DNA of 64,000 bases, taken from assembly GCA_004297825.1 (NCBI GenBank), contig SCSX01000068.1, positions 92,651 to 156,650 on the forward strand, in the 5' to 3' direction. The notes beneath the pieces are model-generated. The model saw only the letters and a list, made by a program, of their open reading frames with translations, searched no databases and had not been told where the DNA came from. The stretch's first letter is position 1. Each line of letters opens with the position of its first letter. Both the position numbers and the translations under genes were made by a program. The DNA is from Spirochaetota bacterium. Its GTDB lineage: Bacteria > Spirochaetota > UBA4802 > UBA5368. Of the stretch, positions 15,288 to 57,677 are shown in pieces.

Positions 15288-15293
15288 GGGGGA

Positions 15294-15341
15294 TAAGGCG
15301 CGCGGGGGGCCGATGCGCGTATCGGCCCCCCGCGCGCCTTA
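15294..15341. terminator. Very stable 21-bp stem-loop, probable bidirectional terminator
   Basis: A perfect 21-bp inverted repeat (15294-15314 with 15321-15341) has a 6-base GCGCGT loop and an extremely GC-rich stem (GGCGCGCGGGGGGCC). TATATTTCC follows on the plus side. It sits between the convergent esterase (plus) and beta-barrel-like gene (minus) and would serve both. The rest of the 15212-15453 gap holds no gene. Confidence 0.7.
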
Positions 15342-15453
15342 TATATTTCCGAAATTGAATTGAAAATATGCGGCCATGCGATTGCCGTTCACCATCGGAA
15401 GGAAAAGCCATGGGTTAACCGATCCGCGGCGAGAACGACGCCCCCGCGCTCCG

Positions 15454-53291: not shown

Positions 53292-53331
53292 GAATTAAAA
53301 CATACGGGTCTGTTTTTGCGATGTCAACTAT

Positions 53332-53381
53332 TTTTGCTTATAAGCTAAAATAGTTATGACTATTTTAGCTTATAAGCAAAA
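53332..53381. promoter_or_regulatory. Perfect 23-bp inverted repeat upstream of the DUF4143 ATPase gene
   Basis: The arms 53332-53354 and 53359-53381 are exact complements with a 4-bp spacer TATG. Each arm includes the self-complementary GCTTATAAGC core, so the whole is a doubled palindrome with a TTTGC...GCAAA frame. It begins 41 bp upstream of the gene and is AT-rich within a GC-rich genome. This is a strong candidate operator for a dimeric or tetrameric protein, perhaps the ATPase itself. The rest of the 250-bp gap contains purine- and pyrimidine-rich runs but no gene. Confidence 0.65.
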
Positions 53382-53541
53382 TCGATCTAAACAGGGAATG
53401 CCTGCTTTAAGTCATCTCCCCCACCCCTCTTTGTCTCACATCCCCCGTGGAAGGCATACCGGGACATATTTCCCGCGGGAAGCGTGTCTCTAGGTCGCAA
53501 TGGGCGGGAGCGGTGGGGATAGAAGAGAGGAGGGGATAAAG

Positions 53542-57599: not shown

Positions 57600-57615
57600 C
57601 GTATCCCCGCACACA

Positions 57616-57647
57616 CGAAGGGCGCGGATCTAAATCCGCGCCCTTCG
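57616..57647. terminator. Bidirectional terminator, perfect 14-bp stem
   Basis: CGAAGGGCGCGGAT pairs perfectly with ATCCGCGCCCTTCG around a 4-base loop (CTAA). It lies 16 bp after the membrane-protein gene and 30 bp from the end of the convergent ligase gene. Confidence 0.8.
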
Positions 57648-57677
57648 TTGCGTATATAATTACGGGCCTGGTAACGA

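Follow-up and report, generated by a model that had tools for sequence, protein, structure and literature searches.

The window analysed here, a single stretch of DNA taken at its full length of 64,000 nucleotides, contains a gene for an AAA_14-DUF4143 ATPase with a long perfect inverted repeat upstream of its start codon (Table 1). The neighbouring genes encode a gamma-glutamyltransferase-like protein, a Nif3-like protein, and a 118-residue protein without a match. The two 23-nt arms of the repeat (53332–53354 and 53359–53381) are 100% complementary across a 4-nt spacer, as the initial annotation had described, and the self-complementary core that it reported as doubled, GCTTATAAGC, is read at 53336–53345 and again at 53368–53377. 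The repeat and the ATG (53291–53289) are 40 nt apart, and the earlier figure of 41 bp is thus right within counting convention.

Table 1. Features of the DUF4143 locus in the window, with positions counted from its first nucleotide.
Feature	Position	Strand	Remarks
AAA_14-DUF4143 ATPase, 388 aa	52125..53291	-	AAA+ domain, predicted winged helix (~residues 199–272), PD-(D/E)XK-like end (E285, D321, E335xK337)
Predicted -10, TATGTT	53299..53304	-	7 nt before ATG
Predicted -35, TTGACA	53322..53327	-	centred 16 bp downstream of proximal dyad centre
Whole candidate operator, perfect 23-bp inverted repeat with 4-nt spacer	53332..53381	.	unique in window
Gene-proximal 18-bp palindromic unit TTTTGCTTATAAGCTAAA	53332..53349	.	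one mismatched pair; centre 53340/53341
Middle dyad AATAGTTATGACTATT	53349..53364	.	centre 53356/53357, 16 bp (half-period) from each unit
Gene-distal 18-bp palindromic unit TTTAGCTTATAAGCAAAA	53364..53381	.	one mismatched pair; centre 53372/53373

The architecture was singled out as unusual for a GC-rich region, and it stands out in several comparisons. The segment from 53300 to 53420 has a GC content of 35% versus 59.3% for the 64-kb window, and among the three perfect inverted repeats in the window with arms of at least 12 nt and loops of at most 30 nt this one is the longest, with 23-nt arms versus a longest arm of 10 in one shuffled window. The full 50-bp pattern, with up to three mismatches allowed, occurs once in the window and in none of 100 shuffles. 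In the source genome, which was searched as an assembly of 96 contigs estimated at 95.3% completeness, the core TTWGCTTATAAGCWAA occurs without mismatch only at the two places within the repeat, and two further sites are found at two mismatches; a reversed control pattern gives six matches per strand at up to two mismatches. Elsewhere in the window, a perfect 22-bp GC-rich inverted repeat (15293–15342) lies between a plus-strand gene that looks esterase-like by eye and a convergent minus-strand gene for a 255-aa product, and is most likely a bidirectional terminator. A perfect 15-bp inverted repeat (57615–57648) between convergent open reading frames (134 aa, plus strand; 598 aa and AMP-ligase-like by eye, minus strand) is probably also a terminator.

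The repeat upstream of the DUF4143 gene is best read as two 18-bp palindromes, with most of one in each arm, whose centres are exactly 32 bp apart, equal to three helical turns; the long inverted repeat can be seen as a consequence of this arrangement. That a single palindrome is repeated at exactly 32 bp goes beyond the initial annotation, as does the position of the gene-proximal end, which lies 4 bp from the TTGACA of a predicted promoter-like site (TTGACA-N17-TATGTT; 10 of 12 consensus matches) between the repeat and the gene. With the predicted -10 so close to the ATG, the transcript is likely to have no leader or almost none. The repeat could fold into a 23-bp hairpin and act in RNA as an attenuator or terminator. 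It lies, however, upstream of the predicted promoter, no terminator pattern is found between 53200 and 53560, in the window none of the Rfam families attains its gathering score, and those members of the gene family that have direct repeats (see below) would form no such hairpin; we therefore give an RNA hairpin hardly any probability.

The 388-residue product matches Pfam families PF13173 (89.3 bits) and PF13635 (85.2 bits), for which the gathering scores are 27 and 28.1. Residues E285, D321, E335 and K337, which we take to be the PD-(D/E)XK catalytic set, are invariant across nine aligned members, and with this conserved E, D and ExK the protein is a putative nuclease. A structure model built from nine aligned sequences (pLDDT 84.9) has helices at residues 222–229 and 233–245 followed by strands, a predicted winged helix. 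The best Foldseek match of the model is DNA-bound Cdc6/Orc1 (2qby; E 2.2e-8, with a TM-score of only 0.31), and the fold also resembles RuvB; the top VIA matches are PABY2304 (2qen; Z 14.2, rmsd 5.2) and SSO1545 (2fna; Z 14.1, rmsd 4.6), followed by STAND proteins among others. A sequence search for solved relatives found none at E 0.001. The protein also matches the PADLOC models for the phage-defence candidate PDC-S01 (E 1.5e-53); of the several hundred members collected, ten others were tested and every one matches too. PDC-S01 is reported to consist of an ATPase with a fused PD-(D/E)XK member and to rank fourth in frequency among prokaryotic defence systems, with most such candidates awaiting validation (PMC12988326), and a rumen survey lists it among the most frequent defence systems (PMC13356809).

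The initial annotation held that absence of the palindrome upstream of orthologous genes would tell against a dedicated operator. When the collected members are ranked by blastp score, the top nine full-length relatives (L038, L125, L009, L010, L126, L137, L039, L127 and L040) have scores of 421 bits or more and 51–63% identity. In seven of them two TTTGC-N6-GCAAA units are retained 32 bp apart, the pair scoring at least 17 out of 20. The pair is missing in L125 (score 13) and L127 (score 11), the labels of these two being UBP8 and Armatimonadetes; in L137 an alternative pair at 33 bp scores one point above that at 32 bp. L009, L010, L038, L039 and L040 belong to the same phylum as the window, L137 is labelled Desulfobulbaceae, and L126 is labelled only as a bacterium; the count omits L128, for which a wrong frame was taken, and L149, a gene fragment. 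The next relatives (L041, L129 and L042; ~50% identity, ~370 bits) have pair scores of 12 to 14, and among the other 50 relatives listed only L079 reaches at least 17 at 32 bp. The earlier proposal to look for TTTGCTTATAAGC before other DUF4143 genes would mislead, as close relatives alone retain this sequence. The recognition helix reads SH[RK][AS][VI] in nine of the ten members with a TTTGC unit, the tenth being the distant L020, in which the unit is probably a chance match. Because these nine belong mostly to one clade, the shared helix motif is not independent evidence for a specificity code, and a code of this kind was rejected.

There are seven DUF4143 genes in the source genome, and their upstream sequences differ from one another. 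Five of the paralogues besides the window gene have an inverted repeat of at least 12 near the start, and L003 has a weak one only (10, with a loop of 29 nt). The open reading frame of the paralogue L004 starts past the position of the Walker A motif and is probably truncated or frameshifted. A single motif common to all DUF4143 genes is ruled out, as the sequence varies by clade and by paralogue, and the different upstream sequences make one shared regulator unlikely. Upstream palindromes often serve as binding sites for a separate regulator, and an unrelated trans-acting host protein could be proposed to bind here too. Against this stand the confinement of the mismatch-free core to this one repeat, the different sites of the paralogues, the recognised neighbours, which are the gamma-glutamyltransferase-like and Nif3-like genes, and a geometry that accompanies the gene family in different groups but does not extend to adjacent genes (see below); a host regulator is accordingly improbable. 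No signal of avoidance of operator sharing among paralogues of one genome was seen in 75 within-genome pairs.

The family was initially collected with a finder that overlooked relatives, and with it an inverted repeat of at least 9 was found in 60 of 84 members, 5.4% of 840 shuffles, and 18% of 267 controls. Nine listed controls had lag 32 as their best lag with a value of at least 9; seven of these were overlooked family members and two were neighbours sharing the intergenic region of a member, and both members and controls were therefore redefined by HMM. This gave 206 distinct members, of which 200 were left after short, N-containing or near-identical upstream regions were dropped; other family tests started from 205. 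As starts are predicted only, the Walker A codon served as the reference point for member regions and the first ATG for control regions. Paralogues that share a genome are non-independent throughout these counts.

Periodicity was looked for without assuming any motif. Lag 32 lies 7.2 standard deviations above the mean of lags 6–70 and is the best lag in 65 of 161 upstream regions. It reaches at least 9 in 71 of 200 members versus 3 of 216 neighbour genes, and at least 12 in 53 versus none; the other lags reach 9 in a mean of 3.4 and a maximum of 11 of the 200 members. Inverted-repeat scores of at least 12 are reached by 62 of the 200 members, compared with 3 of the 216 neighbour genes. Counting all types, operator-like arrays precede 144 of 205 members versus 16 of 216 neighbour genes, and in the other 61 no array reaches the thresholds used. 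In more distant members the sequences differ while the layout is similar: palindromes or direct repeats lie close to the start and have a period of 32/33 bp or, in one branch, 22/23 bp.

The two periods are distributed unevenly over a midpoint-rooted tree of 246 members, comprising the 205 together with viral and plasmid members, in which the window's branch has low support at the root (0.052) and 106 of its 111 members group with a support of 0.998. Lag 32 reaches at least 10 in 63 of the 111 window-clade members (none of 111 shuffles) and in 4 of 135 members of the other clade. Lag 22 or 23 is found in 22 of these 135, with none in shuffles and, among 216 controls, three at lag 22 and none at lag 23; several such members have three or more direct copies by eye. 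Iteron-like 23-bp direct repeats, in at least three copies by eye, precede L169, L170, L173, L179 and L203, which belong to one branch. Neither repeat nor array is present, at the thresholds used for the tree, in 86 of the 246 members. In L014 and L096 the intergenic region with the operator-like array is common to a divergent neighbour gene, which might be co-regulated.

Relatives of the window protein occur in distant groups, on plasmids (336 records) and on viral contigs (36), from which it follows that the gene moves, and the repeats could in principle be the ends or target sites of a mobile element carrying it. Yet when the 200 nt downstream were scored in 122 members, an operator-like copy reached at least 12 in just three (and in none of 122 shuffled sequences), and the repeats are tied to the promoter region, making a mobile-element origin very improbable. 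Among eleven named plasmid members, inverted-repeat scores are 5 for L241 (Thermus), 8 for L243 (Bandiella), 18 and 10 for L244 and L245 (both Runella), 9 for L247 (Thermus), L248 (Allochromatium) and L251 (Meiothermus), and 7 for L249 (the one archaeon) and L250 (Bacteroides); L242 (Rhabdochlamydia) has an inverted repeat of 8 with lag 32 of 12, and L246 (Ruminococcus) one of 6 with lag 23 of 18. The array rule is thus not universal. On viral contigs, with repeats of one locus included, an inverted repeat of at least 9 is found in 13 of 36 and lag 32 of at least 9 in 1 of 36. The Bandiella gene is annotated in two pieces and has on either side an annotated toxin-antitoxin pair with an AbrB-type antitoxin. 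The Thermus thermophilus member TT_P0211 is reported to be up 6.6-fold with a plasmid when Argonaute is present (PMC4406477); L247, a family gene in pTT27 of HB27, may be another gene than TT_P0211 and has a weak repeat only, and nothing is drawn from this induction.

The pattern was examined again in a hold-out set of eight genomes, chosen because first-set members from other groups lie in them and with the first-set members left out. DUF4143 matches or fragments in these genomes number 109, with as many as 30 in a single genome; 90 of the 109 were taken up, and 76 of the 90 HMM matches were kept as new members. An array of any type precedes 48 of the 76 versus 9 of 80 controls (member regions being 165 nt, against 160 nt for the first-set controls), and 28 have none. 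At a value of at least 10, lag 32 is found in 14 and lag 33 in 15 of the 76, no other lag is found in more than two, and shuffles give at most one; lag 32, lag 22/23 and the inverted-repeat test had been set beforehand, and lag 33 was noticed in the hold-out itself. Lag 32 or 33 is present in 27 of 76 members versus 3 of 80 controls and an inverted repeat of at least 10 in 33 of 76 versus 6 of 80; lag 22 or 23 is rare (3 of 76 versus 0 of 80). All six window-clade members of the hold-out have an inverted repeat of at least 10, and four have lag 32. The Bacteroidales genome G394, with 30 DUF4143 matches (L322–L341 and others), has 32/33-bp direct repeats before 18 of the 22 members examined, and by eye the repeated letters vary from gene to gene.

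Several further features bear on how the arrays relate to promoters and to the encoded proteins. TTGAC is present upstream of 136 of the 205 members; among controls it is found in 51 of 216, and among shuffles in 25 of 205. Of the 83 members with both features, 28 have the TTGAC centre at 0 to +2 relative to the best dyad and 27 have it one 16-bp step away (-14 to -16, +16 or +18). Of 84 pairs of dyad centres, 41 are spaced by exactly 16 bp and 13 by 32 bp, although the 16-bp spacing is an arithmetic consequence of a palindrome with a 32-bp period and no separate finding. Arm covariation is 0.667 for the AGTCTTGACT type (n = 18) versus 0.464 after arm swapping (maximum 0.566 of 1000), and 0.692 for the CTCATGAG type (n = 10) versus 0.517 (maximum 0.650). 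For these two core types, arms match their own partner better than same-type arms of other genes, indicating that symmetry is kept while the letters change; in the TTTGC type no clear covariation is seen outside the 16-bp unit (0.487 versus 0.430). Across 123 members, operator similarity tracks winged-helix identity beyond ATPase and nuclease identity (partial correlation 0.122; 0 of 300 permutations), with values of 0.069 for the helix-turn-helix alone (6 of 300 permutations as high) and 0.039 for the middle domain (39 of 300). The nuclease domain given the winged helix has 0.116, about equal to 0.122, and the winged-helix correlation thus lends weak support.

We conclude that the repeat is, with fairly good confidence, the gene's own cooperative autoregulatory operator, bound by the winged helix of the encoded protein. 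The AAA+-winged-helix-nuclease protein would bind as dimers on the two palindromes three helical turns apart, and the dimers would sit cooperatively on the same face of the helix with the half-period dyad between them; the bound protein would occlude the adjacent -35 and so shut off its own promoter. Elsewhere in the family the operator letters differ by clade and paralogue, with recurrence of the geometry (32/33 bp, or 22/23 bp in one branch). A dedicated operator with autoregulation had been proposed in the initial annotation and is probably right, supported by conservation of the site in 7/9 close relatives, the abutting promoter-like sequence, a core unique in the genome, the predicted winged helix, and like arrays in 144/205 and 48/76 members. 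The accompanying suggestion of toxin-antitoxin-like conditional cooperativity finds no support, as no toxin or antitoxin partner adjoining the gene is recognisable among the neighbours examined. What we infer from these patterns is that the product binds the site before its own gene, that it does so cooperatively, and that it represses the promoter instead of activating it; the same applies to any part that ATP or the nuclease may play.

Repression seems likelier than activation because many dyads in the family sit on TTGAC. The candidate operator of the window gene, like that of several relatives, is placed just upstream of the -35, where an activator might equally bind. The protein might then polymerise on its private array like an initiator on iterons, either activating its own promoter or storing an inactive nuclease, with no repression involved; the resemblance of the fold to Orc1/Cdc6, RuvB and STAND proteins and the iteron-like direct repeats of some members are in keeping with this. 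The 28 of 83 members in which the centres of TTGAC and the best dyad nearly coincide (0 to +2), and several members whose arms end within 10 nt of the likely ATG, are better suited to repression, and we consider activation or assembly of this type unlikely. An extension of the autoregulatory operator reading, which we put forward as doubtful, is that PDC-S01 is a single-protein switch, in which the STAND-like ATPase would assemble on its own array in three-turn steps with the nuclease held off and expression shut. Infection would release both protein and promoter, the triggers being competing DNA, a DNA-modifying or DNA-degrading phage, or loss of the array, and paralogues would act as independent channels.

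Autoregulation on helically phased repeats is familiar from iteron-controlled plasmid initiators and toxin-antitoxin operators; the DUF4143 locus differs in that no replicon and no partner protein are recognised there. Orc1/Cdc6 initiators with origin recognition boxes, the genes of which often lie beside these boxes, share with the predicted model an AAA+ domain plus a winged helix. The DUF4143 protein differs from them in having a PD-(D/E)XK-like end and many paralogues per genome with different sites, and the likeness is one of fold only. STAND ATPases (PABY2304, SSO1545, CED-4, NLRs, Avs5) have a nucleotide-binding, helical and winged-helix layout, which the DUF4143 protein may share, as judged from structural matches of the predicted model. 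It differs in that its winged helix seems to retain specific DNA recognition, the remaining domain being nuclease-like. Among the literature matches listed, the nearest functional parallels are RptR and IniR. RptR represses a defence-island promoter via three direct repeats, with a 6-bp palindrome as the minimal site (PMC12255303), and IniR is a regulator whose ATPase domain resembles SSO1545 (PMC5760070). Repression of a defence promoter through repeats would thus be shared with RptR, which is a separate small regulator, whereas here regulator and effector would be one protein. PDC-S01 itself is a candidate system, and no operator, repeat, regulation or autoregulation of DUF4143/PDC-S01 proteins is described among the literature matches listed, whose coverage leaves out most subscription papers and preprints. 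Autoregulatory operators and phased repeats are known kinds, and their combination in the DUF4143 family seems undescribed in the searchable literature.

As judged from sequence, a very common and little-characterised family of ATPase-nucleases often carries gene-specific, helically phased operator-like arrays. Should each of these proteins bind the array that precedes its gene, sequence alone would reveal the DNA targets of many that are uncharacterised, and the strict 32-bp step would also predict how the ATPase packs on DNA. The arrays would then be ready substrates for binding, ATPase and nuclease assays and would make it possible to test directly when the genes are turned on, and the family would offer a large natural set of protein-operator pairs with apparently different specificities.
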